A DNA stretch of 26,564 nucleotides, taken from positions 1 through 26,564 of the IMG/VR virus record IMGVR_UViG_3300033553_000562; one strand, given 5' to 3'. Both the position numbers and the translations under genes were made by a program. The stretch is from a virus. Below are positions 1 to 18,860 of this stretch, piece after piece (position 1 is the first letter of the stretch; each line of letters starts with the position of its first letter). The notes beneath the pieces are model-generated. The model saw only the letters and a list, made by a program, of their open reading frames with translations. It had not been told where the DNA came from and did not search any database.

Positions 1-374
1 CATCAGGCCTTTGTTTTAATGGGGTTGCGCGCAAAGCGAAACGAAATGGGTGTTTTCGGCGGTGTCACTGGGAAAGCGTTGCGCCTCGCCCCCCCGTATA
101 CGGTTACGAACAGGAAGGACCCGTTCAATATCAATGGGTTATATGTCTCGCAAAATCGACCGGAGATAGTTTTCAGCAGGGGTACATGCTATCGTTTGAC
201 CGCAAAAACCCGTTGCCAACCTGCATCCTTCCCTCTCTCACATCCCGTGCAATCATATCGTTTTTATACCGAACAGAAATCGATCCGTCACGCCTAACGG
301 TGTCTCATTGAAAAGTGTCCCGCTGATACGCGAGGGGTTGACAGGGCCATGGGTTCACCACCGCCCTGCCCGCT
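1..374. other. No gene recognised at left edge
   Basis: I see no supportable gene, RNA or mobile-element end in this stretch. One open frame on the plus strand (19-297) gives a 92-residue protein that resembles nothing I know and has no clear ribosome binding site. The sequence is visibly less GC-biased than the operon beginning at 375. It lies downstream of the last gene of the minus-strand phage-type operon, so it could be the gap between an early and a late phage module, or the edge of the element. The window ends before this can be decided. Confidence 0.5.
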
Positions 375-800
375 TCACGCGGTCCGCTGAATCACGAACT
401 CCATCGACCGCTTGCGCGGCATGGTCTTGCCGTTGAGCCGCCAGACGATGACCGCGAGCCCGTATTCGAAGCGACGGTTCGCGGTTGCCCGGCTGATCCC
501 GTGCGCCCAGCAAATTCCCTTCCATGCCTTGCGATTGGCCCGCGCCCAGAGGATCTGACCGATGTCCTTGTCGAGCCAGCGCAACCAAAGCATCGCCTCG
601 TCGGCTTGCGTGATCATCCGCGGCGACGGCAGCGGACGGCGCATCTTCGGCTCTTGTTCGACCTGGTCGGCAAAGCTGTAATTATACTCAGGCCATGTGC
701 TGACGTAGCCTTGCGGACGCACTGGCGGCAGGCTGCGCATGACGTCTGCCGCGAGATCCAGCCGGTCGGCGACCATGGCCCGCGTCCAATCATTTGCCAT
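375..800 (-). CDS. DUF6362-like phage protein
   Basis: A 141-residue protein resembling the DUF6362 family of alphaproteobacterial prophages; its function is not known. Typical features seen are an N-terminal DWTRAMVADRL segment, a central LPPVRPQGYVSTWP block, the stretch EAMLWLRWLDKD, and a C-terminal helix-turn-helix-like segment (CWAHGISRATANRRFEYGL) that suggests DNA binding. I chose the ATG at 800 because GGAGG stands about 6 bases before it; an upstream in-frame ATG would add 15 residues without such a site. It overlaps the end of the preceding gene by 11 bases and is the last gene of the minus-strand operon. The family often sits at the end of the early region near packaging genes, so a regulatory or packaging-related role is possible, but that is inference. 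Confidence 0.72.
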   Translation of the reverse strand: MANDWTRAMVADRLDLAADVMRSLPPVRPQGYVSTWPEYNYSFADQVEQEPKMRRPLPSPRMITQADEAMLWLRWLDKDIGQILWARANRKAWKGICWAHGISRATANRRFEYGLAVIVWRLNGKTMPRKRSMEFVIQRTA

Positions 801-1002
801 TGCGCACCTCCCGAACGGCAGGGAGTTTGCCATAGAGCTTTTCACCGAGCTGGCGGACCAGTTCGCGCTCGGGCCAGGTCAGCCGGTCATCGTCGATGGC
901 GATAGCCAGCAGGCCCTGTTCCTGCCAACCGTCGCACTTGACTCGTTCGGGGTCACGCCGGTGACCGCCGTAGCCCTTCGGGGTGAACCGCATGCCGTTC
1001 AT
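790..1002 (-). CDS. Small phage-type protein, unknown function
   Basis: A 70-residue charged protein (start MNGMRFTPKGYGG, then RLTWPERELVRQLGEKLYGK). I recall similar small proteins in Rhodobacterales phage regions, but no function is known to me. The start is supported by GGGGAGG about 6 bases before the ATG, and that ATG overlaps the stop of the RuvC-like gene in an ATGA arrangement, implying coupled translation. Its stop overlaps the start of the DUF6362-like gene by 11 bases. No membrane segment, cysteine cluster or known motif is visible. The central WPERELVRQLGEKLYGK segment could form an amphipathic helix. Confidence 0.6.
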   Translation of the reverse strand: MNGMRFTPKGYGGHRRDPERVKCDGWQEQGLLAIAIDDDRLTWPERELVRQLGEKLYGKLPAVREVRNGK

Positions 1003-1463
1003 GATGCACCTCCCCGGGTTTCGATGGCCCAGTGGAGGATGGCGATGGCATCGGCTTCGTTGTCGTCAGCGGGTGAGAACCCACGGGCCCGGGCGGCGGC
1101 GATCATCGCGTCCTTGTTTGCGTTGCCTCGGCCGGTCGCATGTTTCTTGATGGTTCCGACCGGAACGCCCTGGTAGGCGACGGAATTCTGTTCGCACCAG
1201 ACTTCAAGGATCGCCAACCAACCTCCGTAGAGGTGAGACGCGTCTGTTCCCGCATGTCGGCGCACCTGTTCGTAGTAAAGCTGATCAAACCCCCCGGAGA
1301 GGCGATAGATTTCATCCAACCAGGCCCGGAAGCGCAAGAAGCGCATTCCGCCACCTTGCCAGCGGTCCTGCCTGAACTGGACAACACCACTCGTGATCAT
1401 CTTGTTATCATCCGACAGGGACCAGCCTGTCCGGGTTCCAAGGTCCAGGGCCAGAATACTCAT
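999..1463 (-). CDS. RuvC-like Holliday junction resolvase
   Basis: A 154-residue RNase H-fold nuclease of the phage RuvC type, expected to cut branched DNA such as four-way junctions made during replication or recombination. The opening LALDLGTRTGW supplies the first acidic residue (D7), YYEQV supplies E65, and the C-terminal DDNEADAIAIL supplies D133/D134, E136 and D138. The spacing closely matches E. coli RuvC (D7, E66, D138, D141), although the rest is diverged. GGAGG lies 8 bases before the ATG, and the start overlaps the stop of the HNH gene (ATGA). Its place in a replication operon with a Sak4-like ATPase and primase-helicase fits a role in resolving branches before packaging or segregation. 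I do not use the name ruvC because this is the phage branch of the family. Confidence 0.85.
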   Translation of the reverse strand: MSILALDLGTRTGWSLSDDNKMITSGVVQFRQDRWQGGGMRFLRFRAWLDEIYRLSGGFDQLYYEQVRRHAGTDASHLYGGWLAILEVWCEQNSVAYQGVPVGTIKKHATGRGNANKDAMIAAARARGFSPADDNEADAIAILHWAIETRGGAS

Positions 1464-2077
1464 AGAACGTGCCTCCAGCTGGTGTTGGATAGGATCCTGA
1501 AGATCGAACGCTGATGCATGCCGTAGCCTTCGGCGATTATAGTTCGCGGGATACCAAAGGTCTTCATCCGCCGAATGGCACGAACATCGATTTCAGAAAT
1601 GGATGAAGACGGATTCCTTGAACCGATCATTGCGGTGCCATGAACCCGGCAGTCTCCGAGGTTTTCGGCCTGCGTTGCCCACCTGAGGTTTTCAGCTGTG
1701 TTGTTGGTGCGATTTCCGTCGTTGTGTGCAACGACATGTCTTGAGGACGGTGCAGGGCCATGAAACGCCAGCGCAACGATCCTGTGAATATCCAAACGCA
1801 TCGTGCGGGGTCGCTCGCAAAGACAGACCGAAAGATAGCCGGTTTTCTTGTTCAGCAGTTGCCGAAGCACACGCCCGGTGACTGCACCTTTGGATTGACC
1901 AACCCTGCGAACTTGCCCACTGGACGAGACTTGGTACTTGGACCAGCCCGGAATTGCTCGCCAATCGTTTCGGTCACCGTGACCTTTGGATCGGCAAGAT
2001 GTGCGGTCGGCGCGGAAGGCAGGCGGCAGATCGGGGATTGCCTCCTGCATCCTGGTGGTCAGAGTCGCTTCAGCCAT
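1460..2077 (-). CDS. NUMOD4/HNH endonuclease, homing-type
   Basis: A 205-residue protein with the layout of phage homing endonucleases. After an N-terminal stretch of about 36 residues that matches nothing I know comes a NUMOD4-like motif (DWRAIPGWSKYQVSSSGQVRR, about residues 38-58). An HNH_3-type core follows (IHRIVALAFHGP, then HVVAHNDGNRTNNTAENLRW, about residues 97-135) with the expected His, Asp/Asn and Asn residues. The last 50 residues look like a helix-turn-helix DNA-reading segment (IRRMKTFGIPRTIIAEGYGM). Such genes usually nick or cut a specific site and spread as free-standing selfish genes in phage genomes. AAAAGGAG precedes the ATG at 2077. It follows the repeat-rich gap and its stop overlaps the RuvC-like start, so it is well integrated into the operon. 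A non-selfish phage role is possible. Confidence 0.8.
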   Translation of the reverse strand: MAEATLTTRMQEAIPDLPPAFRADRTSCRSKGHGDRNDWRAIPGWSKYQVSSSGQVRRVGQSKGAVTGRVLRQLLNKKTGYLSVCLCERPRTMRLDIHRIVALAFHGPAPSSRHVVAHNDGNRTNNTAENLRWATQAENLGDCRVHGTAMIGSRNPSSSISEIDVRAIRRMKTFGIPRTIIAEGYGMHQRSIFRILSNTSWRHVL

Positions 2078-2415
2078 CGTGGTCTCCTTTTCGGGTTAGC
2101 TGCGGGGGTGGAAGACGACGGTGGTCATGTGCTTGGCGGTACGGGCCGCCGTCGTCGGATCGGGATGTGCAGGGAGCGTCAAAACCCGCGCGCGCGGATA
2201 CCCTCGACGTATGGGAGGAGAGGCCAAACCTGCCGGTTGGCCTCCCCATACGTAGTATGGGGGTTTCACACCTAACTCCTCGGATGTGGGTAAGAGGCTG
2301 ATCTCAAATAGAAAATCAGGATCCGCGAGGAGTGAGGGAGGAGTTTGCCCCCAAACTCCTCGCGGCGCGCAAGTCATTGTTTTCATTGATTGAGGAGTTG
2401 GTGAGGACATAGGAG
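2078..2415. repeat. Repeat-rich gap after primase-helicase gene
   Basis: The longest break in the minus-strand operon (338 bp). The motif AGGAGTT or its complement AACTCCT recurs, allowing partial copies, near 2274, 2328, 2339, 2354, 2393, 2411 and 2431, the last inside the end of the primase-helicase gene. A 10-bp perfect inverted repeat, GAGGAGTTTG with CAAACTCCTC, spans 2338-2361 with a 4-base loop. A second structured block spans 2208-2262. One open frame (2096-2410, minus) could encode 104 residues; its last 20 codons are GC-rich at the third position, but no start has a ribosome binding site, so I do not call it a gene. Seen: the repeats. Inferred: iterons, operator sites or an RNA control element. 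Confidence 0.6.
2208..2262. repeat. Nested inverted repeats built on CCCATACG
   Basis: The sequence CGTATGGG (2208-2215) is mirrored by CCCATACG (2245-2252), and the stem continues as GAGGCCAA against TTGGCCTC, giving a long imperfect hairpin with a loop near 2231-2234. The right arm also forms a separate perfect inverted repeat, CCCCATAC (2244-2251) with GTATGGGG (2255-2262), spaced by 3 bases. The two foldings exclude each other. No T-run follows on either strand, so it is not a standard terminator. Confidence 0.6.
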
Positions 2416-4794
2416 TTAGGCCTCACTCTTAGGAGTTGGGCCTGATTTTCCGTCATCTTTGCCTGTCATCGGGTAGACCCAGACCGAGGGGTTTTCGACT
2501 TGCAGGCAGACCCCGGATTGCGGGCATTTATAGTGACTCGGGAGCACAGGGCGGGCGATTTCCAAGACTTCGCCCGTCTCAGGATCGACCGATTGCTCGG
2601 GACCGAAATGCATACCCTCAACAGCCAGATAGCCGAACCGTGACCGCACCACCGGGTAGCCGAACCCGGATCCGTTCCTCAGAAACTTCACGAAACCTTT
2701 CGTAGCGAGGACACTGAGGCGTTCCCTGATCGTGTATTTGCTGCCCAGACCACCCTTGTTTTCGAACTTTTCGGCGAACTGCATCGTCGTATACAGACGG
2801 CCCTCAGTGGCTTCTTCGAACAATATGCCGACAATGACGTCGCGCTTGCGATCCCGTTCTGCGTCGTGCCTTGCGCCGACTTCCTGACGCACAAGCCGCT
2901 CGTTCATCGGGTTGATCTCGACCCATTGGCCACCGACCTTGTCGATCAGTTTGGGCGGCAACGCGGGGCCATTGCGCAGCTCGATCTCCAGCTTTCGTTG
3001 CGAGCAATCCTCGTCGGGGCGATGCAGGATCAGGCCGGAGGTGTAGAACCCGCGCAGCGCGCTGGCGCCGGAGAGCGCGAGGAACGGATCGTCCTTCACC
3101 TGCTGCTTGCTGAACTTCTTGGTGTGGTGGATCAGTATGACCCCGCAGTCGGGGTCGATGTGGTCGCGCAGAACCTCGACCCGTTCCTTGAGGAAGAACA
3201 TCATGGCGGTGTTGTCGTTTTCACCTCCGCCATCGGGCCCGCCGTCGAAGAGGTTTCGGATCGGATCGACGCAGAGAATGTCGGGCGGCGCATCGGGGAA
3301 CTCCGTCTGGACAGCACGTGCCACGCGGACGCTGCCCTCGTTGTCGAGCAGCATTTTCAGTTTCGGGGTGGCGACGAAGGTATCGCGCGCGGCGGCCAAC
3401 ACCTCCGGTGGCAGGGAAATCTGCTTCATGCGCTCGCGCAGATAGTGGTACTGGATTTCGGCCTGCAGGTAGAAGATGCGCAGCGGCCGTGGCGGCGTGA
3501 AGCCCAGAAACGGCACGCCCGCAGCCATGTGCACGAGCCAGCTGATCAGAAGATCGCTCTTGCCGACCTTGGGCGCACCGCCCAACACCAGCAGCCCGCC
3601 CGGCGTCAGCACCCGCGGCGCGATGATGTCCTCCGGCATGGGGCTCTGGTCGTCCAGCAGCGCGCCCAGCGTGAAGGCTGGCATTTCATCCGGCCCCGGT
3701 GCGCCAGAGTTTAGCCGGATCAGCGGCGGTCCATATTTCTCGACATGGCGTTCCCAGAGCCGCTCTGACTCGCGCTTGAGCCGCTCGACCGGCCATTGTG
3801 GGCGCAGCATCGCGGCGTTGTAGCCGCAGATGCCCTCCCAGCCCTCGTCTTTCGACATCCGGCCCTCATGGACCATGCGGATGAAATGGCCGATCGCGGC
3901 CGACGCACCCTCGAAACGCGACCAGTCGTCCTGCGCGCTCTCGCGCACCGGGGTGACCAACACATCATCGACAGCGGGCTTGTCGGGCATGGTGAAGTCC
4001 GGCTGCAACGATACGCCCGGCGCAGGCGGCATGTCGGTCACCGCTTCGGTAAACTCGCCCAGATCGCGCTCGCGATCCGCGTTCAACGCCACGATGCGCA
4101 CCTGCGTCTTGAGGCTGTTCTTGTAATAGACCGAGCCTGCCACGCGGATCGGCTGATGCGCCGAGCGGAAATGCATATCGCCGCCGACCTTGGCGGCAAT
4201 GTCACCGCGCAGACGAGTCACACGCGCAATGTCGCTGCCCTCGGCGGGCTCGGTGAGTTTCCACCAGACATGCGTCTTGTGCTGGCCCTCTGGCGTCACC
4301 CCGCCGCTTTCGACCACCATCGTGGGCGGGCCGAGATGGCGTTCGAGATGGGCGCGTTTGGCGGCGATGTCACCAGTGTCGATATCGACGACCACAGCCT
4401 CCATCTGCAGAATGTCAGCCGCCTTGGCCTGTCCGGGCTCGGCAACCGTACCCGGGATGACATAGACGGCAGCACCTTCGCGTGCCGCCCAGTTGGCAAA
4501 GGTGGTCATCTTGTCGGTGACGTTTTCACCGGCCTCGATCCAGATGTTATGCGGGCGGCCATCAAAGCCCTGGCCCTTGTCGATGAAACTGCGAACGGGG
4601 ATCAGCCCGTCGCAGTAGCCAAACACCACCTCCATGAATTGTGCGATCTGCTCGGGGTCCGTCTCGTCGCCGAACACATCGATCTGCGGGGCTGCATCGT
4701 TTAAATCGCGCCATGGGTTGAAATGGAGGAGGTTTTCCTTTGGCGCATCCGGCGCGGTATCATTTCCGTCCTTGCGATCATCATCATGCGGCAT
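2416..4794 (-). CDS. AEP-type primase fused to RecA-fold helicase
   Basis: A 792-residue protein expected to prime and unwind DNA during replication of the element. The N-terminal part resembles RepB-like archaeo-eukaryotic primases: a metal-binding DID (VVVDIDTGDI, about residues 137-139), the HVWWKL strand (about 175-180), a GGD, and the basic IRVAGSVYYKN segment. The C-terminal part is a RepA/DnaB-type ATPase with Walker A GGAPKVGKSD (about 405-414), a Walker B ILCVDPIRNLFDG and a downstream LIHHTKK. The last 150 residues probably include a winged-helix segment. I place the start at 4794 because AAGGAGG stands 5 bases before that ATG. The ATG at 4851 overlaps the upstream stop (ATGA) but lacks such a site; it would add 19 acidic residues. 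The upstream gene encodes the Cas4-like nuclease. Confidence 0.85.
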   Translation of the reverse strand: MPHDDDRKDGNDTAPDAPKENLLHFNPWRDLNDAAPQIDVFGDETDPEQIAQFMEVVFGYCDGLIPVRSFIDKGQGFDGRPHNIWIEAGENVTDKMTTFANWAAREGAAVYVIPGTVAEPGQAKAADILQMEAVVVDIDTGDIAAKRAHLERHLGPPTMVVESGGVTPEGQHKTHVWWKLTEPAEGSDIARVTRLRGDIAAKVGGDMHFRSAHQPIRVAGSVYYKNSLKTQVRIVALNADRERDLGEFTEAVTDMPPAPGVSLQPDFTMPDKPAVDDVLVTPVRESAQDDWSRFEGASAAIGHFIRMVHEGRMSKDEGWEGICGYNAAMLRPQWPVERLKRESERLWERHVEKYGPPLIRLNSGAPGPDEMPAFTLGALLDDQSPMPEDIIAPRVLTPGGLLVLGGAPKVGKSDLLISWLVHMAAGVPFLGFTPPRPLRIFYLQAEIQYHYLRERMKQISLPPEVLAAARDTFVATPKLKMLLDNEGSVRVARAVQTEFPDAPPDILCVDPIRNLFDGGPDGGGENDNTAMMFFLKERVEVLRDHIDPDCGVILIHHTKKFSKQQVKDDPFLALSGASALRGFYTSGLILHRPDEDCSQRKLEIELRNGPALPPKLIDKVGGQWVEINPMNERLVRQEVGARHDAERDRKRDVIVGILFEEATEGRLYTTMQFAEKFENKGGLGSKYTIRERLSVLATKGFVKFLRNGSGFGYPVVRSRFGYLAVEGMHFGPEQSVDPETGEVLEIARPVLPSHYKCPQSGVCLQVENPSVWVYPMTGKDDGKSGPTPKSEA

Positions 4795-4847
4795 GTCGGC
4801 CTCCTTTCTCTGGTCATCTGTGTCGGGCGGGTCGTTCGGGGCATCCG

Positions 4848-5615
4848 TCATGTCGGCAGGTTCCAGCAGCGCTCCGCCCAGGAGCAGAACCGGCATTCGA
4901 AAAAGTCGCGATTGGCAGCCACACGTGGCAGCAACTCGCCCGCGTCAGTGGCCTGCAGGATCCGCACGCCGCGGTCGGACATGCGCTGCGCCAGATCGGC
5001 GTCGAAAGGCACCAACTCGTGGTGCATCTCTCCTGTGTCCTTGTTGATCGCGGTAAACACGGCTGGCGCTCCGCTGATGCCGGGCACGCTCGCTTCCATG
5101 TACGCCTGGTAGACAGCGATCTGCGCGGCATAGACGGGTTTGGATTTGGTCACGCCCTCCTTGACGCAGGCGCGCCAGTTCTTCGCGTTCATGGTCTTGC
5201 ATTCCCAGAGCGCCGGAACGGCAAGCCCAAAGCCCTCGGGTCCGGCCGCAAAGATGCCATCGACATGGCCCCGAATGCGCCCACCCGCGACCGAGAACCC
5301 GAACTGGCCCCCATCTGGACGGTTGCCTTTCTGGGTGTAGAGTTCGAACCCCGCGCCGCGCAGCCAGCGGATGGCGAGATCTTCCAGTTCATGCCCGATA
5401 GCGAAAATGCGCAGCAGCTGGCCTGAGAAGTCTTGTCCCTCGTCTTTCGACGTGGCGGTGAACTCGAATTGCAAGGCGCGTTCGCAGGCGTGGCCGAGGC
5501 GTGACCCACCGAGGTAATCGCGGGGTACGCGTGCCGCATTTTCTACGGTCAGGGCTGCGTCGATGGTCTCGTTGACGCGCTCAGCGAAACTGGGTCGGCG
5601 GTTGTAATCGATCAT
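4848..5615 (-). CDS. Cas4-like PD-(D/E)XK nuclease, four cysteines
   Basis: A 255-residue nuclease of the RecB/Cas4 group. The active-site pattern is clear: IGHELEDL (H75), RGHVDG (D119), WECK (E138 and K140) and the Q-motif QIAVYQAY (Q165). A cysteine near the N-terminus (HACERALQF, C44) and three at the C-terminus (C241-x2-C244-x5-C250) match the arrangement that holds a 4Fe-4S cluster in Cas4 and AddB-type nucleases. It probably degrades one DNA strand to expose ssDNA for the nearby Sak4-like ATPase and SSB-like protein. The frame stays open upstream to 5981, but that extension is the neighbouring gene read in another frame. The ATG at 5615 overlaps the previous stop as TGATG and has GGAGG upstream. 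There is no cas1, cas2 or CRISPR array in the window, so a CRISPR role is unlikely. Confidence 0.85.
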   Translation of the reverse strand: MIDYNRRPSFAERVNETIDAALTVENAARVPRDYLGGSRLGHACERALQFEFTATSKDEGQDFSGQLLRIFAIGHELEDLAIRWLRGAGFELYTQKGNRPDGGQFGFSVAGGRIRGHVDGIFAAGPEGFGLAVPALWECKTMNAKNWRACVKEGVTKSKPVYAAQIAVYQAYMEASVPGISGAPAVFTAINKDTGEMHHELVPFDADLAQRMSDRGVRILQATDAGELLPRVAANRDFFECRFCSWAERCWNLPT

Positions 5616-6043
5616 CAGAAGGGCACCTCCGACTGGCTGGCGATCTCGAACATCTCGGTGCGGAAGGCCTCGACTGTGATCACGATCAGCCGGTGCATGT
5701 CGTGCTGGCTCAACTGCCCCAGCGCGCAGTCCCAACCAATGCGTTCCATTTCGGGCGCAAGCGCGCGCATCACGGCGGGCAGCGCCTGGGTTTCCTCTTC
5801 GGTAAAATCGACCATGCTCAGTCCTCTTTTCGCTTTGATGGTGAAGGTCGACTGGCATTGCATCGAGCAGAACCAGCGGTATGTGCGTTTGCTGCGGGGC
5901 AGATGCGGATCGAACCAGCCGAAGCCTCGGGTGCGCGCGGTGCAGACGGCGCAAAGCGTGCCGCGCGGATGCCAGAGGCAATCAAAGCCCGGGCGATCCG
6001 CAGCCGCTGCGGGCGTGGATTGGACTTGCGCGACATGATTCAC
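5615..6043 (-). CDS. Zinc-ribbon protein, DUF6511-like
   Basis: A 142-residue protein. The first half carries a probable zinc ribbon with two cysteine pairs, one in CLWHPRGTLCAVC and one in FCSMQC. The second half (LSMVDFTEEETQALPAVMRALAP to the end) is predicted helical and resembles DUF6511, a family known to me only from phages and prophages; its function is unknown. The start is a GTG at 6043 that overlaps the helicase stop (GTGA), with GGGAGG 4 bases upstream. An ATG in another frame at 6036 would give a 72-residue arginine- and alanine-rich product with no zinc-ribbon logic, so I rejected it. Its stop overlaps the start of the Cas4-like nuclease gene. An accessory DNA- or protein-binding role with the helicase or nuclease is plausible. 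Confidence 0.7.
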   Translation of the reverse strand: MNHVAQVQSTPAAAADRPGFDCLWHPRGTLCAVCTARTRGFGWFDPHLPRSKRTYRWFCSMQCQSTFTIKAKRGLSMVDFTEEETQALPAVMRALAPEMERIGWDCALGQLSQHDMHRLIVITVEAFRTEMFEIASQSEVPF

Positions 6044-7734
6044 GCTGCCTCCCGCGCGGCAGGTGCCGCGCTCAGGATCAACTGCCGGATGGCGCGCTTG
6101 TTGAACCCGAAGGTCATCAGCGCCGAGGCCTTGTAGCGGGTGAGGCCATAATCGTTGCGCGCGGCGGGCGAGAGGTATTGCAGCTGCTTTTCGGTGGCGG
6201 GCTGGATCAGCCAGGCGCGCGTCTTGAAGGCGCTTTCGTCGGTCTCGTGATCGTTCAGCCAGTCATCGGCCTGCGCGAGACAGACGCTGCACTCGCCGAT
6301 ACCCAGAAGCTGCGGCTGCACCCCGCGCGCGCCGCCGATGCCGTACCAGAGGCCGTCCAGCCAGAAGACACCGCCCCAGGCGGAGAATCCCGTGGCCAGC
6401 AGCGCATCCTCGGTGCCGAAGAGATCGACCCACTCGAAACTGGAGCGCTTAAGCAGATCGATCTCGGTCATCAGAAAGCCGGAGAGCGCCCCACCAAGGG
6501 CTCCCTCATCGGCTTCATCCTCGTCCTCGTCCAAGAATACCGCGCCACAGATCGGGCATTCGCGCGACGCCATTGGAATATCGGCCTGGCACACCGGACA
6601 GGTTTTCGAGGGTGCGTCGCCGGTCCCGGTCTTGCCTTCCAGATCGACGTCCTGCTCCAACGTGCCGTGGGTCAAGCTCGAGGTGCCGAAATCCAACACC
6701 ACGCAGTCGGTCTTGATCACACCCGGGTGCTCGGCAGGATCGACCGTGCGCAGGCCCCGCCCCACCATCTGGATCATGGTGGACTTGTAAGAACTAGGCC
6801 GCAGGAGCACGACGCAGGACATGGGCGGGTGGTCCCAGCCTTCCGTGAGCACGGCCACGTTGGTTATGACGCGGATTTCACCCTTCGTGAAGGCGGAGAG
6901 GATATTGCGGCGTTCGTCGCCGGGCAGATCGCCATGGATCAGGCCGGTGGGGATGCCCGCTGCATTGAAGGCCTCGGCGACATGGGCGGCGTGGGCCACG
7001 GTCGAGCAGAACACCACCGTGGGCCGATCGGCAGCCTTTTCCTGCCAGTTGCGCACCACTTCCTCGGTGATCGGCGCACGGTCCATGATCTCGGCCACCT
7101 CGCTCATGTCGAAATCCGACACGGCCTTGCGCACGGCCTTAAGCTGGTCCTGCACGCCCACATCGATGACGAAAGTGCGCGGTGGTACCAGATGCCCCGA
7201 TGCGATCAGTTCGCCCAGCCGCACCTGGTCGGCGACATTGTCAAAGACGTCGCGCAGCCCCTTTTTGTCACCGCGATTTGGTGTGGCTGTCACCCCGAAG
7301 ATGCGGGCGTCGGGGTTGGCATCGCGGACGCGATCAATGATGCGGCGGTAGCTGTCGGCGACGGCGTGATGGGCTTCGTCGATCACCAGCAGGTCCAGCT
7401 TCGGTATTCCCGCCAGGTTGGCCTTGCGTGCCAGCGTGGGCACCATCGCGAAGGTCACCTGGCCAGCCCATGATTTGGTCGTGGCGTCGACGATGGAGGT
7501 GGACACATCCGGGACCACGCGTCGGAACTTGTCGCGGTTCTGCACAGTCAGTTCATCGCGATGCGCCAGCACGCATGCCTTTGCCTCGGTGCCCGCAAGG
7601 CTGTCGCCAGTAACCGCCGACAGCATGATCGTCTTTCCCGCTCCGGTCGGCGCGATGCCAAGCGTGTTGTCGCGGGTGCCGAGCGCAGACAGGCTGCGCT
7701 CGACGAAGAGTTTCTGGCGGGGACGCAATCGCAT
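6040..7734 (-). CDS. SF2 DEAH-box helicase with zinc ribbon
   Basis: A 564-residue superfamily 2 helicase of the phage/UvrB-RecG-like type, expected to unwind or remodel DNA using ATP. Visible motifs are APTGAGKT (Walker A, 28-35), DEAH (119-122), TATP (149-152), VFCSTV and IHGDLPGDER in the second RecA lobe, and QMVGRGLR (motif VI, 322-329). A four-cysteine zinc ribbon follows (C379, C382, C393, C396), then a very acidic run (LDEDEDEADE, 401-410). The last 150 residues are unlike core helicases and end with a helical GLTRYKASALMTFGFNKRAI segment. The ATG at 7734 lies 11 bases after the preceding stop, with GAGGGA upstream. It could serve replication restart or strand annealing beside the SSB-like and Sak4-like proteins. 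Confidence 0.88.
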   Translation of the reverse strand: MRLRPRQKLFVERSLSALGTRDNTLGIAPTGAGKTIMLSAVTGDSLAGTEAKACVLAHRDELTVQNRDKFRRVVPDVSTSIVDATTKSWAGQVTFAMVPTLARKANLAGIPKLDLLVIDEAHHAVADSYRRIIDRVRDANPDARIFGVTATPNRGDKKGLRDVFDNVADQVRLGELIASGHLVPPRTFVIDVGVQDQLKAVRKAVSDFDMSEVAEIMDRAPITEEVVRNWQEKAADRPTVVFCSTVAHAAHVAEAFNAAGIPTGLIHGDLPGDERRNILSAFTKGEIRVITNVAVLTEGWDHPPMSCVVLLRPSSYKSTMIQMVGRGLRTVDPAEHPGVIKTDCVVLDFGTSSLTHGTLEQDVDLEGKTGTGDAPSKTCPVCQADIPMASRECPICGAVFLDEDEDEADEGALGGALSGFLMTEIDLLKRSSFEWVDLFGTEDALLATGFSAWGGVFWLDGLWYGIGGARGVQPQLLGIGECSVCLAQADDWLNDHETDESAFKTRAWLIQPATEKQLQYLSPAARNDYGLTRYKASALMTFGFNKRAIRQLILSAAPAAREAA

Positions 7735-7745
7735 GGCTCAGTCCC

Positions 7746-8447
7746 TCACTCGGCCCAGCTCGGACGACCCGAGAAGGCAGGTGCGTGCTGTACGGGCGTC
7801 TGCTGCGTTGGCGTCTGCTGCGGCTGTGGGGCCGGTGCCGGATGACCCTGTGCCGGATGACCCTGCGCAGGTGCAGAGGGAGCAACTGGCGTCTGATGCT
7901 GCGGCGCGAATCCGGGGGACTGCATCTGCGGTGCCATGCTCGAGGCCGCGACATGCCCCATCACCTGCGCGTAATCGCGGTGATCCGGCATGACCGCGCT
8001 CTTGATCTCGTTCTTGTCCTCGCCATTGGTGTCCTGTCCAATGTCGATCCGGGCGATAAATTCCAGACCATCAAGGTCAGCAAACCCGTTGATCCGGCGC
8101 CGAGCCTGAGCCTCGGGGGAATTGTCCTTGTCAGAAATACCGCGCGACGAGTTGAGGATGCCCCGCACAAGGCTGCGGCCCATATTGGCCCAATCAGGGC
8201 CTTTGGGGCTGTAGAGCCCGATCAGCGACCAGATCTTGCGCTTGGCATACGGCCCTTCGAGCACAGTGTATTCGGCATCGAGATAGACAGAACCGGTATT
8301 GCCACGTTTGGCATAGCCGCCGGTCCAGCCTTGGCTGGGGTCATCAAACCCGCCGGGGCGCAGCGTCAGGCGCACCTTGGCCTGCGTGCCCTTGGGGATG
8401 ACATTGCTGTTTGATTGCGCGTCGTTGAAATCGTTCCAGAGAGACAT
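7746..8447 (-). CDS. Probable phage ssDNA-binding protein (DUF669-like)
   Basis: A 233-residue protein. The first 155 residues (start MSLWNDFNDAQ, then KGTQAKVRLTLRPGG and KRKIWSLIGLYS) are rich in beta-strand pattern and resemble phage DUF669-type proteins often found beside single-strand annealing genes. The C-terminal 70 residues are a low-complexity tail of Pro, Gln and Ala with a tandem GHPAQ-GHPAP, coded by a 15-bp tandem repeat (7837-7850 and 7852-7865). It ends in SWAE. A folded DNA-binding domain plus a flexible tail with an acidic end is the usual plan of SSB proteins, but the canonical DDDIPF tip is absent. GAAAGGA precedes the ATG. It sits between the Sak4-like ATPase gene (13-bp gap) and the DEAH helicase gene, which supports the role. 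The SSB function is inference. Confidence 0.65.
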   Translation of the reverse strand: MSLWNDFNDAQSNSNVIPKGTQAKVRLTLRPGGFDDPSQGWTGGYAKRGNTGSVYLDAEYTVLEGPYAKRKIWSLIGLYSPKGPDWANMGRSLVRGILNSSRGISDKDNSPEAQARRRINGFADLDGLEFIARIDIGQDTNGEDKNEIKSAVMPDHRDYAQVMGHVAASSMAPQMQSPGFAPQHQTPVAPSAPAQGHPAQGHPAPAPQPQQTPTQQTPVQHAPAFSGRPSWAE

Positions 8448-8460
8448 GGGTGAAGTCCTT

Positions 8461-9357
8461 TCAGTTGGTGGTGTCGTTGGAGGGGGTGGTGGCCTGCGCT
8501 GCCGGGGGTGGCGGCAGTTCCAGGGCCTGGTAGGTCAGGCAACGGCCCTCGGGGATGAGCGGGCCCCGGATCTTGTCCATCAGCTTTCCAAGATGCGGGG
8601 GTTCGACCATATCGAGACGCCCGGACCGATCCTTGGCGGGAAAGCCCCAGGGGTTGAGCGTGTGACAAACAAACCCGCGCTGCGGCGCTCCGTCCTCGCC
8701 TGCAATGTCGGTCATGGTGATGACCTGATCGACGATGCCCGGCAACTCGAGCCCGGTCTTGGAGCCGTCGATCTGGGGCGAGAACACCTTGCGATTGAAG
8801 TCATCAAGCTTCTGATCGAGGATGCCCACAAACCATATGTTCTTGCCGCGGGTGTGCTGCAGATGGGTCAGCCACGCGATCATTTCGCGACCGTGCAAGC
8901 CATACGCGCCACGGACATCGGGCTTGCCGGTCTTGTCCGAGAACGCCTCGGGCTGGCCCTTGCTCCACTGAAAGCACAGCCGACCAGCCACGGTGATCGA
9001 GTCGATGAACACCGTGTCGTATTTCTCGAGCACGGTCGGGTCTCCGAACTTCGTGCACACCGCAGCATAATGCGCGGGGCTGTACGCCTGCTCGTCGCGC
9101 AGCGCCGGGTTGGGGCCACCGATGAAGACGGCGAAATCCCGGCATTCCGTCCAGGTCCGCGGCCGGATCGCATCTATGGCCAGCCCCTCAATCGCAAGGT
9201 CTCCGGCCTCAAGGTCGAAAAACAGCGTGGTCGAGTTCAACAGCGTCCAGAGCAGCGATGTCTTGCCGATCCCGGACGGGCCGAAGATCACGCCCTTGAT
9301 GCCACGGTGTTCCGCCATGCGCTGGTCGGCGGTAATGATGGGGAGCGCGCCGGTCAT
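8461..9357 (-). CDS. Sak4-like RecA-fold ATPase (AAA_24)
   Basis: A 298-residue phage nucleotide-binding protein of the AAA_24/Sak4 type, a minimal RecA-like core that in studied phages promotes single-strand annealing together with an SSB. Walker A is GPSGIGKT (26-33), a FFDLEAGD strand follows, and Walker B is YDTVFIDSIT (D119). There is also a Gln/His sensor-like stretch (LHGREMIAWLTHLQHT). The C-terminus is a Pro/Ala-rich tail (LELPPPPAAQ) that could mediate contact with the adjacent SSB-like protein. The ATG at 9357 overlaps the preceding stop (ATGA) and has GGGAGA upstream. Operon order (unknown protein, Sak4-like, SSB-like, helicase, nuclease) is the order expected of a phage recombination module. 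Confidence 0.82.
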   Translation of the reverse strand: MTGALPIITADQRMAEHRGIKGVIFGPSGIGKTSLLWTLLNSTTLFFDLEAGDLAIEGLAIDAIRPRTWTECRDFAVFIGGPNPALRDEQAYSPAHYAAVCTKFGDPTVLEKYDTVFIDSITVAGRLCFQWSKGQPEAFSDKTGKPDVRGAYGLHGREMIAWLTHLQHTRGKNIWFVGILDQKLDDFNRKVFSPQIDGSKTGLELPGIVDQVITMTDIAGEDGAPQRGFVCHTLNPWGFPAKDRSGRLDMVEPPHLGKLMDKIRGPLIPEGRCLTYQALELPPPPAAQATTPSNDTTN

Positions 9358-9839
9358 ACGGGATCTCCCGCCTCGAGTGTCACCTTCAGCGTGCCCACCT
9401 TCACCGTGCGCGCAGGCTCGAACCCCTTGCGCCAGGCCTCGGGCAGCGCGCTGTATTTGCGTTCACTGACCTTCAGCGTCGTATCGATGAATTCGGATGG
9501 GTCCTGGCCGGATGCCGTGACGCTTTGGGCAATCTGCATCAGTTTTTCCTGATCCCAATCCACCCGCTTCGGCAAATCGGCCACCACCGTGTAATCGCCA
9601 TCCGCCAGCCGCACTGTGCCGGTGTCCTTGCCGCACGCACGGCGGGCTTCCGTGGCGCGGGTTGCGTAGCGCACCTCCAGCGCCGTACTGAAATGCGCGG
9701 TGGCCGATTTCAGCTGCCTGGCCGCATGCGCGAGTTCCGCCTGCAGACCCGCCAGCAATTCAACCGGCATCTGGGCCAGCTCGCCGGTGGGCATGTTGAG
9801 CATGTCATCCACGCTCGGGGTGTTTTCAGGATAAGTCAT
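9354..9839 (-). CDS. Phage-type protein, unknown function
   Basis: A 161-residue protein that I recognise only as a recurring unknown in Rhodobacterales phage regions. The N-terminal third is helical and probably coiled (ELAQMPVELLAGLQAELAHAARQL). The middle is well patterned (RYATRATEARRACGKDTGTVRLADGDYTV, positions 57-85, then ADLPKRVDWDQEKL). The C-terminal part (ERKYSALPEAWRKGFEPAR) precedes a beta-rich end. AAGGAGAT precedes the ATG. Its stop overlaps the start of the Sak4-like ATPase, so the two are probably made together and may act together. No catalytic motif is visible. Confidence 0.65.
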   Translation of the reverse strand: MTYPENTPSVDDMLNMPTGELAQMPVELLAGLQAELAHAARQLKSATAHFSTALEVRYATRATEARRACGKDTGTVRLADGDYTVVADLPKRVDWDQEKLMQIAQSVTASGQDPSEFIDTTLKVSERKYSALPEAWRKGFEPARTVKVGTLKVTLEAGDPV

Positions 9840-9864
9840 AGGATCTCCTTTTCGGGTAAATGGG

Positions 9865-10173
9865 TTAAGCAGCCGCAGCGAGCTGCTTCACGGCAGCCGA
9901 CTGTGCAGCGCTCTTTTGCCGGCGGGCGATGGCGAGGTAGGCAAAACGGTCCGGTCCAAGACGCTCCTGGAAGAGATGAACGCGGCCGAGTTCAGCGAGG
10001 CGGTAGGCCGCGTGGGCGGTGGCCCGCAGGCCCTCACGCTTTGCTTTGGTCAGCGCCGAGACGTCGGCGGTCTTGTCGACCACCAGAAAGCCTGTGTGAT
10101 AGGTCAGGCGCGCACCGGGCTCTGCCACATCGACCCAGGCCATCAGCGTGATTTCGGAAACAGCGGAAACCAT
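9865..10173 (-). CDS. Phage-type protein, unknown function
   Basis: A 102-residue protein with no motif I recognise. The first 35 residues have a beta pattern (VSEITLMAWVDVAEPGARLTYHTGFLVVD). The rest is helical and basic, ends in a poly-alanine tail (KQLAAAA), and contains ALTKAKREGLRATAHAAYRLAELGRV, which looks like a helix-turn-helix or an amphipathic pair. The ATG at 10173 overlaps the preceding stop (TGATG); a GTG one codon upstream is an equal alternative. The next gene starts 25 bases downstream with its own strong ribosome binding site. Confidence 0.6.
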   Translation of the reverse strand: MVSAVSEITLMAWVDVAEPGARLTYHTGFLVVDKTADVSALTKAKREGLRATAHAAYRLAELGRVHLFQERLGPDRFAYLAIARRQKSAAQSAAVKQLAAAA

Positions 10174-10382
10174 CACGCCACCCCCGCGCTTGCGCTGTCA
10201 GCGATCACGCGAAGCCGCTCTTTCTCGAAGGCAAGGATGTCATCGAGCCGGTACACAATCCGGCCGCCTATTTTCATGTAGGCCGGGCCCTCACCCGCCC
10301 ACCGCCAGCGCTCAAGCGTGCGATGCGACAATGTCCAACGCCGGGCGAGCTCCTTTTGCGTGAAGCAGATCTTTTCTTGCAT
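10173..10382 (-). CDS. Excisionase/AlpA-like HTH protein (HTH_17)
   Basis: A 69-residue DNA-binding protein with a MerR-type winged helix: FTQKELARRWTLSHRTLERWRWAGEGP followed by the wing segment YMKIGGRIVYRLDDILAFE (residues 7-52). This plan is typical of recombination directionality factors and AlpA-type regulators. The frame is open further upstream to a TTG at 10412, but GGAG lies 6 bases before the ATG at 10382, so I use that start. It is the first gene of the long replication operon, so it may control that operon or steer the serine recombinase at 15293. Either role is inference. Confidence 0.75.
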   Translation of the reverse strand: MQEKICFTQKELARRWTLSHRTLERWRWAGEGPAYMKIGGRIVYRLDDILAFEKERLRVIADSASAGVA

Positions 10383-10580
10383 CGGTGTCTCCAGATCAAT
10401 TCCTGGAGCCAAGATGCAAAATTCAACTGTGGGATGTCGTCAGGATCGTTGGGGGATGCGGAAGGGGATGACTGCCCTCATGAAAACAAGTCCAAAATTG
10501 CAAAGAGGGGGATGCTCATCCCCCTCCATCCCCCAGCCTATCCCCTTCCGGTCCCCCCCCTCGGGAGGGCCCGCCTGTCG
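10383..10580. promoter_or_regulatory. GC-rich inverted-repeat spacer upstream of early operon
   Basis: This spacer separates the unknown gene ending at 10581 from the HTH gene beginning at 10382, both on the minus strand. GGGGATG or its complement recurs: GGGGGATG near 10451, GGGGATG near 10464, GGGGGATG near 10507, and CATCCCC copies near 10517 and 10528. GGAAGGGGAT (10460-10469) is mirrored by ATCCCCTTCC (10540-10549), 70 bp apart. The promoter of the operon must lie here or upstream, but I cannot point to convincing -35 and -10 boxes. Repressor sites are a likely use. Confidence 0.5.
10505..10526 (-). terminator. Probable intrinsic terminator
   Basis: A perfect 9-bp inverted repeat, GAGGGGGAT with ATCCCCCTC, with a 4-base loop. 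On the minus strand it is followed by TTTGCAATTTTGG, a broken T-run. It lies 55 bases after the stop of the gene ending at 10581, so it could end that transcript before the replication operon begins. The T-run is poor, and the same bases belong to the GGGGATG repeat family, so an operator role is an alternative. Confidence 0.45.
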
Positions 10581-11261
10581 TTATTCGGTATTCAGCCGGT
10601 AGTTGCCACGGCGATCAGACTGAATCAGATCGCGCCAGTTATTCTTGGACTTGAAGACGTCCGACATCCTCAGGCTTTTTGAGCGCGCTTCAGACAGGAT
10701 GTTCTTGCCATTCTGCCAGGGCTGACCTGCCTGTACCCCTCTGTGCAAGGCCCGCACAACCGCCGCCTGGATCGGTCCGAGCTGGAACCGATGACCATTG
10801 CAGCGCACCTCCGAATAGTCGCGCGATGGGATGAACGTGCGATCATCCAAGTGGCCACCGGCGGTAAATCCTGATTTGATTTCATAGCGATCGCGCTCGT
10901 CACGCCGCATCAGAAGATCGCCGATTACCACATAATGCGGCTCGGCCGGGTCCCAGAGCGCCGCATAATCAGCATTGGGAGCGCGGAACTCACTCAGGTG
11001 CGCTTCGCCGGAGCGGAACAGGTGGAACACATCGCAGGCGTGCAGGTCGACCACCCCGCTGAAGAACTGCCGATCCGTTGGGATCCGAAACGACTGCCCG
11101 CCCTCACCCTCTTCATAATCACCAAATTCCAATGGCAGCCCGAACACTCTGATCGACAGGCGCAGTTCGTTATTCTCAGCAAGATAGATCAGATCGTCTT
11201 CCGCGATGGACCACCGTGTGAGGATCTCGGGGAGCGCAAAATATGACTTTTCGATTTCCAT
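10581..11261 (-). CDS. Unknown protein divergent from the repressor
   Basis: A 226-residue protein that I cannot assign. The N-terminus (EKSYFALPEILTRWSIAEDDLIYLAENNELRL) looks like a small HTH domain of the kind seen in Rhodobacterales unknowns. The middle is beta-rich (SFRIPTDRQFFSG, YVVIGDLLMRRDERDRYEI). The last 70 residues (FQLGPIQAAVVRALHRGVQAG, later SDVFKSKNNWRDLI) look like a winged-helix domain. It is transcribed divergently from the XRE-S24 repressor gene, the position that cro-like or anti-repressor genes take in phages, so a regulatory role is reasonable but unproven. GGAAG lies just before the ATG at 11261. The GC-rich hairpin at 10505-10526 follows it. Confidence 0.65.
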   Translation of the reverse strand: MEIEKSYFALPEILTRWSIAEDDLIYLAENNELRLSIRVFGLPLEFGDYEEGEGGQSFRIPTDRQFFSGVVDLHACDVFHLFRSGEAHLSEFRAPNADYAALWDPAEPHYVVIGDLLMRRDERDRYEIKSGFTAGGHLDDRTFIPSRDYSEVRCNGHRFQLGPIQAAVVRALHRGVQAGQPWQNGKNILSEARSKSLRMSDVFKSKNNWRDLIQSDRRGNYRLNTE

Positions 11262-11368
11262 TTTTCTTCCGACTCCCCTCGTATTTGTTCTAATTTCGTT
11301 CTAGCCTCTTGACGAAGTCGGATCAATCCAATCTTATCCTATTATATCCACACATATCTGGGGATAAC
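11262..11368. promoter_or_regulatory. Divergent control region with likely operators
   Basis: An AT-rich 107-bp spacer between the unknown minus-strand gene and the S24 repressor. GTTCTA occurs at 11287-11292 and 11298-11303, exactly 11 bp or one helical turn apart. TATCC occurs at 11335-11339 and 11345-11349, and an inverted copy GGATA lies at 11362-11366, just before the repressor start. Repeats of this kind flanking a promoter suggest binding sites for the repressor itself and perhaps for the divergent protein. The assignment is inference from position. Confidence 0.55.
11309..11337 (+). promoter_or_regulatory. Likely sigma-70-type promoter of repressor operon
   Basis: A -35-like TTGACG at 11309-11314 and a -10-like TCTTAT at 11332-11337 are separated by 17 bases. 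They lie about 30-60 bases before the repressor ATG at 11369. The TATCC repeat overlaps the -10 side, which would allow self-repression. Box quality is moderate. Confidence 0.5.
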
Positions 11369-12046
11369 ATGACCGAACATCACACGCTTGCAGACCGCCT
11401 GCAGGCCCGTGCAAGCCAGCTTGGGCTCAGCCCTGCGCATGTCGCCGAAATGGCCGGGGTGAACCGGTCCTTTGTCTATGACATCCTGCGCGGTCGCTCG
11501 ACGCGCCCGGGACTTGACCGTCTTGCCGAAGTCGCACGCGTTCTGAAGGTGGAACTGGATTGGCTGATACACGGGATTGGCGGTGTGGAAGGTGCGTCAC
11601 CCTTCATCGAAAATCCTGACGATACATTCGTGGCGATCGCGCACGCTGGCGTCCGGCCCTCCATGGGCGGTGGAGCGGCCGTGCTCGAGGAGCACGAAAC
11701 GCCGGGACGCGCCTATCACTTCCGCAGGTCCTGGATCAGACAGGGGCTCAAGGCCTCGCCTTCACAATTGCGCATCATGAAAGTCGAAGGTGACAGTATG
11801 GAGCCCACCCTGATGGAGGGTGACACAGTCCTTGTTGACATGACCAGGCGCGCGCCCAACCCACCAGGCATTTTCGTGCTCGATGATGGTATGGGGCTGG
11901 TCGCCAAACGCTTGCAACATGTGCCGAACAGTGACCCGCCGGCCGTGCGTGTCATATCGGATAACAAGCACTATCCTGAGTATGAACGGATCGCTGATGA
12001 GGTGCACATCATTGGGCGGATCCGCTGGTTTGCACGGGAGGTTTGA
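11369..12046 (+). CDS. XRE-family repressor with S24 peptidase domain
   Basis: A 225-residue CI/LexA-like transcriptional repressor. The N-terminal helix-turn-helix (residues 7-66: LADRLQARASQLGLS, then VNRSFVYDILRGRSTRP) should bind operators. The C-terminal S24 domain has the serine in VEGDSMEPTL (S143) and the lysine in GLVAKRL (K180) that form the Ser-Lys dyad. AHAG near residues 91-94 is a possible self-cleavage site, which would make the repressor respond to RecA and DNA damage; cleavage cannot be judged from sequence. I start at the ATG at 11369, preceded by GGGGA. An earlier frame opening at 11309 overlaps the promoter. It is divergent from the unknown gene at 11261 and heads an operon with a small protein and RecD2. 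Confidence 0.88.
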   Translation: MTEHHTLADRLQARASQLGLSPAHVAEMAGVNRSFVYDILRGRSTRPGLDRLAEVARVLKVELDWLIHGIGGVEGASPFIENPDDTFVAIAHAGVRPSMGGGAAVLEEHETPGRAYHFRRSWIRQGLKASPSQLRIMKVEGDSMEPTLMEGDTVLVDMTRRAPNPPGIFVLDDGMGLVAKRLQHVPNSDPPAVRVISDNKHYPEYERIADEVHIIGRIRWFAREV

Positions 12047-12049
12047 ACG

Positions 12050-12295
12050 ATGACGCACGTCATTATTCGCGGTAAAAATGGCCGACGTCACGAAGTAGAC
12101 TTTGAAAACACCGAAATCACGGTTGAAGTTTACGCCAACGACACGACCGTGGAATTGGTAATTGAGGCGCAGGACGAAGATCTCCCGCCGGACAAGAGGC
12201 GGTTCGCTTTGGTCAACCTCCCCAAGTCCGCCTTTGATAAAGCCATGGCGGACTTGGCAAGGTCGCGCAGCACAGCACTCAAAGCGATCGATTGA
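12050..12295 (+). CDS. Small unknown protein between repressor and RecD2
   Basis: An 81-residue acidic protein that I do not recognise. It begins with a beta pattern (MTHVIIRGKNGRRHEVDFENTEITV), has an acidic turn (IEAQDEDLPPDKRR) and ends with a helix (KSAFDKAMADLARSRSTALKAID, residues 59-81). GGGAGG stands about 9 bases before the ATG, and the gene begins 3 bases after the repressor stop. Its own stop overlaps the TTG start proposed for RecD2. Tight spacing on both sides makes it a real gene, and it may assist either neighbour. Confidence 0.65.
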   Translation: MTHVIIRGKNGRRHEVDFENTEITVEVYANDTTVELVIEAQDEDLPPDKRRFALVNLPKSAFDKAMADLARSRSTALKAID

Positions 12296-14487: not shown

Positions 14488-14613
14488 GGGCAGACCGACG
14501 TAAACACGATCAGATACGCCAGAGTTCGCAAGACCCCGATAAGCCTTTGTTTTTGATTGTATATCGCAACTGCAAACGCTTCATTCGGGGTATTCAACCC
14601 GAAAGGCGCTTCC
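14488..14613. other. Spacer before recombinase cassette
   Basis: An AT-richer 126-bp gap between RecD2 and the recombinase cassette that probably holds the cassette's promoter, though I cannot fix its boxes. A short inverted repeat, TTCGGG (14584-14589) with CCCGAA (14598-14603), lies just before the start at 14614. Its right arm overlaps the GAAAGG ribosome binding site, so a hairpin here could lower translation of the cassette. Confidence 0.4.
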
Positions 14614-14844
14614 ATGAGCAGCACTCTCAGACCCCCGGTTTCGGGGCCCAATCCCCTGCACCCTGATCGCATGTCAGCGCACGAACGCCGGACTGAGCTC
14701 TATGCCCTGCTTGCCGCCGGTCTCATCCGGCTGCTCGGACGCGAACGCGAGGGTACATCCGCTGACGGCGGAGATAGTTCGCTACACTTCCGCCCCAAAC
14801 AGAGCGGTACTGCGGGTCCAACTCACAGGAGGAGATCCGCATGA
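14614..14844 (+). CDS. Small protein preceding DUF2924 gene
   Basis: A 76-residue protein of the type that commonly precedes DUF2924 and recombinase genes in Rhodobacterales. It has a PVSGPNPLHPDRMSAHERRTELYALLA segment (positions 8-34), a helical LLAAGLIRLLGRERE, and a basic end HRRRSA. I know no function. GAAAGG precedes the ATG at 14614 and the stop overlaps the DUF2924 start (ATGA). The basic tail and coupling suggest a small DNA- or recombinase-associated protein. Confidence 0.7.
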   Translation: MSSTLRPPVSGPNPLHPDRMSAHERRTELYALLAAGLIRLLGREREGTSADGGDSSLHFRPKQSGTAGPTHRRRSA

Positions 14845-16624: not shown

Positions 16625-17022
16625 TGAGCGCGCCTGATACGATCCAGGTCTTCGTGCCACTGAAAGTGCGCAAGAAAAACGGGCGGCCGAAAATCCTGCC
16701 GCCCGCTGATTACCTGCCGAGCGAGGACCAGACGCAGGATCCGCATATCCTGCGGGCGATTGGTAGGGCTTGGTCCTGGCGGCGGCGCATGGAGGCCGGA
16801 GAGTTCGGAACCGTTCGTGATCTCGCCATCGCCGTGAACCTTGCAGAGCGCCACGTCAGTCGGCAGCTCAGGCTGGCCTATCTCGCGCCGGAAGTGCTCA
16901 AGCGGCTGGTCTACAAGCGGGAAGCCACAGCGGTGACCGAGCTTAAACTGAGCGATTGCGCAGCGTTGCCGTGGCACGAGCAGGCGGACGTGGTCTTTGA
17001 TGGTGCCAAATCAGCGAGATGA
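16624..17022 (+). CDS. Small HTH-like protein after recombinase
   Basis: A 132-residue protein. The N-terminus (FVPLKVRKKNGRPKILPPADYLPS) is basic. The centre (RAIGRAWSWRRRMEAGEFGTVRDLA, then AVNLAERHVSRQLRLAYLAPEVLK) looks like a KorB/ParB-type helix-turn-helix. I recall it as the usual fourth gene of the DUF2924-recombinase cassette, without a known role; recombination directionality or autoregulation are reasonable guesses. The ATG at 16624 overlaps the recombinase stop (TGATG), with a GTG one codon upstream as an alternative. The cassette ends here and the sequence becomes non-coding, so the attachment site of the element may lie just beyond. Confidence 0.72.
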   Translation: MSAPDTIQVFVPLKVRKKNGRPKILPPADYLPSEDQTQDPHILRAIGRAWSWRRRMEAGEFGTVRDLAIAVNLAERHVSRQLRLAYLAPEVLKRLVYKREATAVTELKLSDCAALPWHEQADVVFDGAKSAR

Positions 17023-18832: not shown

Positions 18833-18860
18833 TACTCTCTCCTGCGCGAGCTATCCGGAG

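Follow-up and report, generated by a model that had tools for sequence, protein, structure and literature searches.

The 26,564-base virus record IMGVR_UViG_3300033553_000562 of IMG/VR, analysed over its full length and here called the window, carries a replication operon on its minus strand. Sequence comparison predicts that positions 2207-2437, at and just beyond the end of the primase-helicase gene of this operon, are very probably the replication origin of a tailed-phage-type element. This reading follows from an array of AACTCCT iterons, a layout common to relatives, co-variation of the repeated word with the C-terminal domain of the primase-helicase, a site resembling that of IHF, an AT-richer stretch and a covarying stem-loop; an earlier note on this DNA had offered an origin as one candidate. 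In the mechanism that we envisage, the primase-helicase, whose gene lies just upstream, would bind the iterons with its C-terminal winged-helix domain, and IHF would bend the DNA between two groups of them. The RepA-like helicase part would unwind the AT-richer array and expose the conserved stem-loop as a single strand, where the RepB'-like primase of the same protein would start a primer, with replication beginning in the 2207-2437 region.

AGGAGTT, the other strand of AACTCCT, occurs eight times in the window when both strands are counted, and six of these copies lie within 2274-2437 (2274 minus, 2339 plus, 2354 minus, 2393 plus, 2411 plus and 2431 plus). None of 100 dinucleotide shuffles of the whole window reached eight copies (mean 1.90, largest 5), and none of 200 shuffles gave six copies of any 7-mer in the gap downstream of the gene; the shorter AGGAGT is not enriched window-wide (10 copies, with 12 of 100 shuffles as high). 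A 10-bp perfect inverted repeat pairs 2338-2347 with 2352-2361, and longer inverted arms at 2323-2338 and 2350-2365 are 88% complementary. The small and large hairpins that follow the array (Table 1) are mutually exclusive, since both use GTATGGG. The earlier note's cluster of at least six AGGAGTT/AACTCCT copies, its inverted repeat at 2338-2361 and its pair of exclusive hairpins within 2208-2262 are all borne out, as is its description of the gap as the only long one in the operon: it spans 2078-2415 (338 bp), and the other intergenic distances, read from the list of open reading frames, are at most 25 bp. Its placing of the array in the gap beside the primase-helicase gene holds for the adjacency but not for the confinement, since the array starts at 2437, in the last codons of the gene.

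Relatives of the primase-helicase, confirmed by tblastn, were collected as the best 80 of the 597 viral matches and the best 80 of the 331 matches in genomes, so that distant members were not seen; by record title the genome loci are mostly from Rhodobacterales-type genera, with some Hyphomicrobiales and others. Removal of 6 loci without a primase stop and of 25 duplicates (compared over 300 nt around the stop) reduced the 160 loci to 129, which with the window give 130 non-redundant gaps. In 103 of these the best 7-mer exceeded all 200 dinucleotide shuffles, while in control stretches of coding DNA from the same loci this happened in 0 of 129 and 1 of 130. AACTCCT arrays are limited to the nearest relatives and a few others, which form class A. 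At most of the other loci another repeated word takes the place of AACTCCT: CTGTCAT, TTGTCAT, GTTCGTCC, CAGATTT or CGTGTTC, and further TTCCTCAT, CTCATAT, CAGTTTC and variants. Thirteen classes were named by hand from the gap 7-mers, before association testing; the words of classes D, D2, D3, D4, D6, G and G2 are related, four loci (L016, L121, L134 and L147) tied between classes and one (L152) nearly did. The earlier note had proposed aligning the gap among relatives, and had held that relatives lacking the repeats would speak against its idea. Among the 11 class-A loci (window included) pairwise identity is 99% in the iterons, 71% in the spacers and 86% in the hairpin, and where AACTCCT is absent the relatives mostly have a repeated word of their own, which in several classes stands at common offsets. 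One gap (L137) looks to have largely lost its repeats while its hairpin is intact, and is possibly a decayed origin.

The layout was measured from the IHF-like site, which with at most one mismatch is present in 63 of the 64 loci of classes A, B, B2, C, E and F (class score at least 3); offsets are those found in at least 30% of the loci of a class. The word stands at -55, -35, -17, +22, +37, +48, +58 and +102 in class A; at -48, -35, -18, +22, +35 and +48 in class B; at -55, -48, -35, -18, +22 and +48 in class B2; at -77, -57, -46, -36, -19, +24, +35, +47, +58 and +104 in class C; at -56, -35, -18 and +34 in class E; and only at -53, -50 and -33 in class F. Different words keep common offsets, closely in four classes and partly in two. 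Of the 56 loci whose hairpin was caught by the search pattern, 55 have its start at +118 to +121; the pattern caught none in ten gaps, though L082 and L137 plainly have one. The IHF consensus WATCAANNNNTTR is matched exactly in 74 of the 130 gaps (1.0 expected) and with one mismatch allowed in 105 (21.4 expected), counts that lose weight as evidence because the gaps are related by descent and are not independent events. Mean guanine-plus-cytosine (GC) content is 0.49-0.51 in the first 200 nt of the gaps, compared with 0.58-0.66 around this stretch.

The repeat word follows the C-terminal winged-helix domain of the primase-helicase, with strong co-variation between the two sequences. Nine proteins shorter than 700 amino acids were excluded; 116 of the remaining 121 had a class score of at least 3, and 104 were left by a 97% redundancy filter. 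Protein pairs were matched by identity over residues 50-640, the 80-88% band holding 399 same-class and 3748 different-class pairs. In this band residues 681-820 are 0.772 identical between same-class and 0.559 between different-class proteins, a difference of 0.213 (300 label permutations: standard deviation 0.006, largest 0.017); the corresponding differences are 0.002 for residues 1-400, 0.006 for residues 401-660 and 0.005 for the RuvC-like protein encoded beyond the gap. C-terminal windows are again highest in the 72-80% band (56 same-class pairs), with differences up to 0.27. The trees of this protein hold 104 loci in 13 classes. That of the C-terminal domain needs 14 changes of class, where 12 is the minimum and shuffling gives a mean of 70. 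Residues 60-660 need 60 changes, the primase part 60 and the helicase part 58 (means of the shuffles about 70, their lowest values 62, 66 and 61); the Cas4 tree needs 58 (97 loci, shuffled 65.3). The C-terminal signal does not come from the coding of the repeat itself, because residue 820 is the first in the frame that class-A iterons overlap. The 30 top covarying columns, by excess mutual information, include T704, M705, Y721, T722, G742, F745, V749 and V750, which on the predicted fold map to the beginning of a helix, to the N-terminal end of what is presumed to be the recognition helix and to the wing. Three other operon proteins tried as partners of the repeats showed a mild association, too weak and with too few pairs to replace the C-terminal domain, but not nil: xis (difference 0.088 from 9 same-class pairs; 14 changes, shuffled mean 17.1), p103 (0.102 from 18; 21 changes, shuffled mean 26.9) and p161 (0.057 from 77; 25 changes, shuffled mean 30.6).

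Linkage without recognition would produce an association of this general kind: the C-terminal coding DNA and the adjacent array would be inherited together, and the array would be bound by a partition, copy control or packaging protein. The two are indeed neighbours on the DNA, the first iterons of classes A and F even overlapping the last codons; RuvC, on the other side, has some class signal (45 changes for 91 loci; the shuffles average 60.2 and go no lower than 55); and the trees of primase and helicase are slightly below their shuffles. All this counts against recognition by the domain and indicates that shared ancestry plays a part, but the C-terminal domain stands apart. The association in the 80-88% band is about zero for residues 1-660 and for RuvC, the 14 changes of the domain tree go far beyond the 45 of RuvC, many of the strongest covarying residues occupy predicted DNA-contact positions of the winged helix, and the word changes at common offsets while the IHF-like site and hairpin stay. 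We consider linkage by itself improbable.

In the primase-helicase AAA_25, at residues 414-594, is the only Pfam family at E 0.001. The full AlphaFold2 model matches the PrimPol of cyanophage S-2L (Z 20.2, residues 77-287), RSF1010 RepB' (Z 17.0, 79-289) and RSF1010 RepA (Z 10.4, 445-661), and the model of the C-terminal domain is a winged helix with a mean predicted local distance difference test score (pLDDT) of 82.6. D171 and D173 are invariant in 46 sequences and sit where AEP primases have catalytic acids. A sequence-profile search of the PDB gave no meaningful match and none to the RSF1010 chains; its best match, a FabG reductase (E 0.0026), was taken as chance. From the models, the roles split among RSF1010 RepB', RepA and RepC seem to be joined in one chain.

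The large stem-loop is conserved in two alignments of gaps, from which L139 and L019 (match out of place) were excluded. In 50 type-I rows, window included, 92.3% of cells are paired and covariation is 0.139, against 0.036-0.073 for slid versions of the structure; in 46 type-II rows the values are 90.0% and 0.178, against 0.062-0.110. Counts of double-change pairs are unremarkable (48 and 164 of 500 shuffles as high), and so is, for type II, the number of kinds of pair (500 of 500). The small hairpin has 96% of its type-I cells paired and is almost invariant there, so it is backed by conservation only; its type-I covariation does not go beyond conservation (score 0.020, 498 of 500 shuffles as high). 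The step of the proposal that is least certain, with chances that we would put near even, is the role of the composite stem-loop as the site at which unwound DNA folds and a primer is begun; this role is suggested by analogy with the ssi sites of RSF1010 and the stem-loop of pRN1 (PMC4234260).

The stem-loop data fit folding in DNA or in RNA alike, and the exclusive hairpins lie in the sense strand of a presumed polycistronic transcript, in a gap that precedes downstream genes. The earlier note had thought an operator array or transcript-level switch equally likely. A regulator would then act on the repeats, or the hairpins would control RuvC and DUF6362 from within the mRNA. The evidence does not favour this. 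Among the operon proteins tested the word tracks the C-terminal domain of the primase-helicase itself rather than a separate regulator; seven longer records have no second array, only 0-5 scattered single copies elsewhere in each; and a scan of 1900-2700, for sigma-70-type promoters only, gave no promoter-like match, nor was there any T-tailed terminator-like one. Rfam, at E up to 1 over 1-12000, returned one sub-threshold match at 4508-4615 and none in the gap. Control of this sort is in our view unlikely, though a little less so than linkage by itself.

The gap could instead hold a conserved small gene, with the repeats incidental. The frame 2096-2410 is open over 104 codons in the window, and several of the ten further class-A loci have an open frame of similar length. 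Its substitutions, however, are flat over the codon positions (142/166/162), each comparison has 6-9 indel columns, one relative has a stop after 67 codons, and neither Pfam nor PHROG matches it at E 0.001. The earlier note had named a conserved protein in this frame as grounds for giving up its idea; we find such a gene extremely improbable.

Several further observations weigh against an origin as we describe it. Exact 7-mers do not beat all shuffles in 27 of the 130 gaps, including all eight of class F, and two of the longer records, G007 and G011, hold 3 exact word copies in the gap and 4 and 2 elsewhere. In the 72-80% band a few N-terminal windows of the protein show differences up to 0.08, and the top covarying columns C797, G765, A781 and V796 are outside the winged helix, the first three in the part that follows it. 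The full protein model is uneven and of low confidence in places (mean pLDDT 63.6); PDB matches of the winged helix are mostly to winged-helix DNA-binding proteins, but individually weak (best E 0.06, best Z 8.0). In the window the IHF-like site has one mismatch to the consensus and the GC profile is uneven (0.46, 0.64, 0.44, 0.60). GC skew shows no consistent switch at the gap, its cumulative minimum being within about 1 kb in 2 of the 7 longer records, and DnaA boxes are not beyond chance in the 130 gaps (one exact TTWTNCACA, 1.65 expected).

Table 1. Features of the predicted origin and its operon in the window.
Feature	Position	Strand	Remarks
Iteron 1, AACTCCT	2431-2437	-	inside last codons of primase-helicase gene
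Iteron 2, AACTCCT	2411-2417	-	overlaps primase-helicase stop codon
Iteron 3, AACTCCT	2393-2399	-	
IHF-like site, AAACAATGACTTG	2370-2382	-	one mismatch to consensus WATCAANNNNTTR
Iteron 4, AACTCCT, inverted	2354-2360	+	pairs with iteron 5 in 10-bp inverted repeat
Iteron 5, AACTCCT	2339-2345	-	
Decayed iteron slot, CACTCCT	2328-2334	-	AGGAGTg on other strand; AACTCCT in several class-A relatives
Iteron 6, AACTCCT, inverted	2274-2280	+	beside stem-loop
Small hairpin, CCCCATAC-TAC-GTATGGGG	2244-2262	-	alternative to large stem-loop
Large bulged stem-loop	2207-2253	-	9-bp outer stem, 3'-side bulge, 10-bp inner stem
Second, optional hairpin, GACGACGGTGG...CCGCCGTCGTC	2114-2156	-	inverted-repeat search; precedes small frame upstream of RuvC
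Primase-helicase initiator gene (predicted), 826 amino acids	2416-4896	-	Pfam AAA_25, PHROG 13004/239, AlphaFold2 with Foldseek/VIA-align
Predicted domains of the 826-residue protein	residues ~77-287, ~405-661, ~663-800		AEP primase; RepA-type helicase; winged-helix C-terminal domain
Cas4-type exonuclease frame	upstream end 5621	-	inner start taken
DUF6511 frame	upstream end 6043	-	
DEAD-type helicase frame	upstream end 7734	-	
AAA-type ATPase frame (our label)	upstream end 9357	-	
Frames without label	upstream ends 8447, 9839, 10176	-	list of open reading frames
Excisionase-like frame (our label)	upstream end 10412	-	list of open reading frames, Pfam, PHROG

Beyond the primase-helicase gene and the gap the operon continues with an HNH/NUMOD4 gene (2077), the RuvC-like gene (1463), a 70-amino-acid frame and DUF6362. 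RuvC is present in 141 of the 160 loci, 186-995 bp from the primase stop where both ends could be placed (L139 gives a negative value). The optional hairpin is present in many, not all, of 20 gaps printed. The gap is 775-995 bp in L006, L007, L012, L014, L024, L067, L075, L111 and others, instead of the usual 330-550 bp, which suggests insertion beside the origin. In relatives without a longer HNH match, L003, L010 and L093 for example, a short frame immediately upstream of RuvC shares the first approximately 26 residues of the HNH/NUMOD4 gene (1460-2077, minus strand; 78-nt matches, 84-100%), and so HNH seems to have been inserted into this small frame next to the origin; L024 has a nearly full HNH copy (94%). 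By eye, 11309-26564 holds LexA-like, RecD2-like, serine recombinase, cyclase-like, FAD oxidase, IS91-type transposase and integrase frames; this right half resembles host or other mobile DNA, and the record may therefore not be clean phage. The element family is tailed-phage-like, since the ten frames scanned in the long relative G006 include integrase, head protease, major head, tape-measure and tail-fibre genes.

Parts of this arrangement are already known, namely origins with iterons, those that follow rep and are recognised by a C-terminal domain (SaPI, Cch2), and those with a stem-loop (pRN1, BIP-1). In RSF1010, an IncQ plasmid, RepC binds the iterons, RepA unwinds and RepB' primes at the ssi stem-loops (PMC4234260). 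A predicted RepB'-like primase, RepA-like helicase, iterons and an ssi-like stem-loop recall its oriV, the protein match being by fold only. Unlike RSF1010, however, primase, helicase and proposed iteron-binding domain are one polypeptide here (a single 826-amino-acid frame), one conserved composite stem-loop, with a second optional hairpin, seems to stand where RSF1010 has the ssiA/ssiB pair, and there are an IHF-like site and a phage-type carrier element. In the Rep/ori of Staphylococcus aureus pathogenicity islands (SaPIs) and Cch2 of the staphylococcal cassette chromosome (SCC) mec, the initiator helicase reads iterons directly downstream of rep through its C-terminal domain (PMC7581432). 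Their position is the same here, and co-variation points to a similar C-terminal specificity; the helicase part differs, AAA_25/RepA-like here and of DUF927 or Primase_Cterm/D5 type there, and a set of words at common offsets is not met in the portion of that paper seen. Judged by these predicted folds, the element looks like an IncQ-type replicon whose proteins have been joined into one, and its iterons follow rep, as they do in SaPIs. In pRN1 and BIP-1, too, the stem-loop lies downstream of the gene for a primase-helicase whose C-terminal part is a winged helix (PMC4234260), but here iterons and stem-loop stand together; in the excerpted account pRN1 is without iterons, BIP-1 has repeats elsewhere that are not taken for the origin, and the helicases are SF3. 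Initiator and iterons also vary between relatives as a matched module in the RepA/ori of the Vibrio cholerae phage-inducible chromosomal island-like element (PLE) satellites, where an initiator-mimicking nuclease may select for swaps (PMC8263062); that RepA is a RepA_N protein, for which the consulted part of PMC7145576 predicts no primase or helicase activity.

Phage WOVitA (KX522565, L162) has a RepA/ATPase gene whose C-terminal part is homologous to query residues 610-817 (33% identity), and the match figures of a WOVitB segment (L184) are the same. Around the end of this gene and just after it, at L162:7863-8070 and in L184, the word AAGTTGGC/AAGATGGC is arranged about an IHF-consensus site, in L162 one of two on that strand. 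We suggest these places as a candidate origin of phage WOVitA/WOVitB. In the other WO records, L183, L185 and L186, of which L185 breaks off within a gene, nothing matches the C-terminal part at E 0.01. The passages seen of a WO genomics paper discuss the origin of the Wolbachia chromosome and no phage origin (PMC9203015), and those of the polyvalent-protein paper hold nothing relevant (PMC5512222). No prior description of the origin was found by paper title or abstract, in a search outside which most subscription journals lie, nor did the literature searched contain the combination of a RepB'-RepA-winged-helix fusion, an IHF-like site, a composite stem-loop and many words at common offsets changing with one domain.

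On balance we favour, with some reserve, a scaffold of fixed geometry with an exchangeable word: winged-helix domain and iterons would be exchanged together as a matched cassette, and the IHF-like site, the offsets, the stem-loop, the primase and the helicase would be retained. This would extend over prophage-type elements in Rhodobacterales and bacteria related to them and over at least one phage WO lineage. Swapping might then be driven by incompatibility or by origin-targeting nucleases. Judged by eye from titles and words, in some cases via a duplicate locus, 6 of the 7 species with two classifiable loci differ in class (Ruegeria intermedia has class D twice), but by a hand estimate chance alone gives about 6 of 7, so we make no claim of incompatibility.

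If the origin is as predicted, it would be a mapped candidate for a widespread prophage type, together with a candidate for one phage WO lineage, and the IncQ division of labour among iteron reader, helicase and stem-loop primase would be found in one protein. The scaffold, if real, would be a natural collection of matched domain-word pairs, about a dozen winged-helix domains with their DNA words at common offsets, through which recognition rules and origin incompatibility would be testable by swaps.

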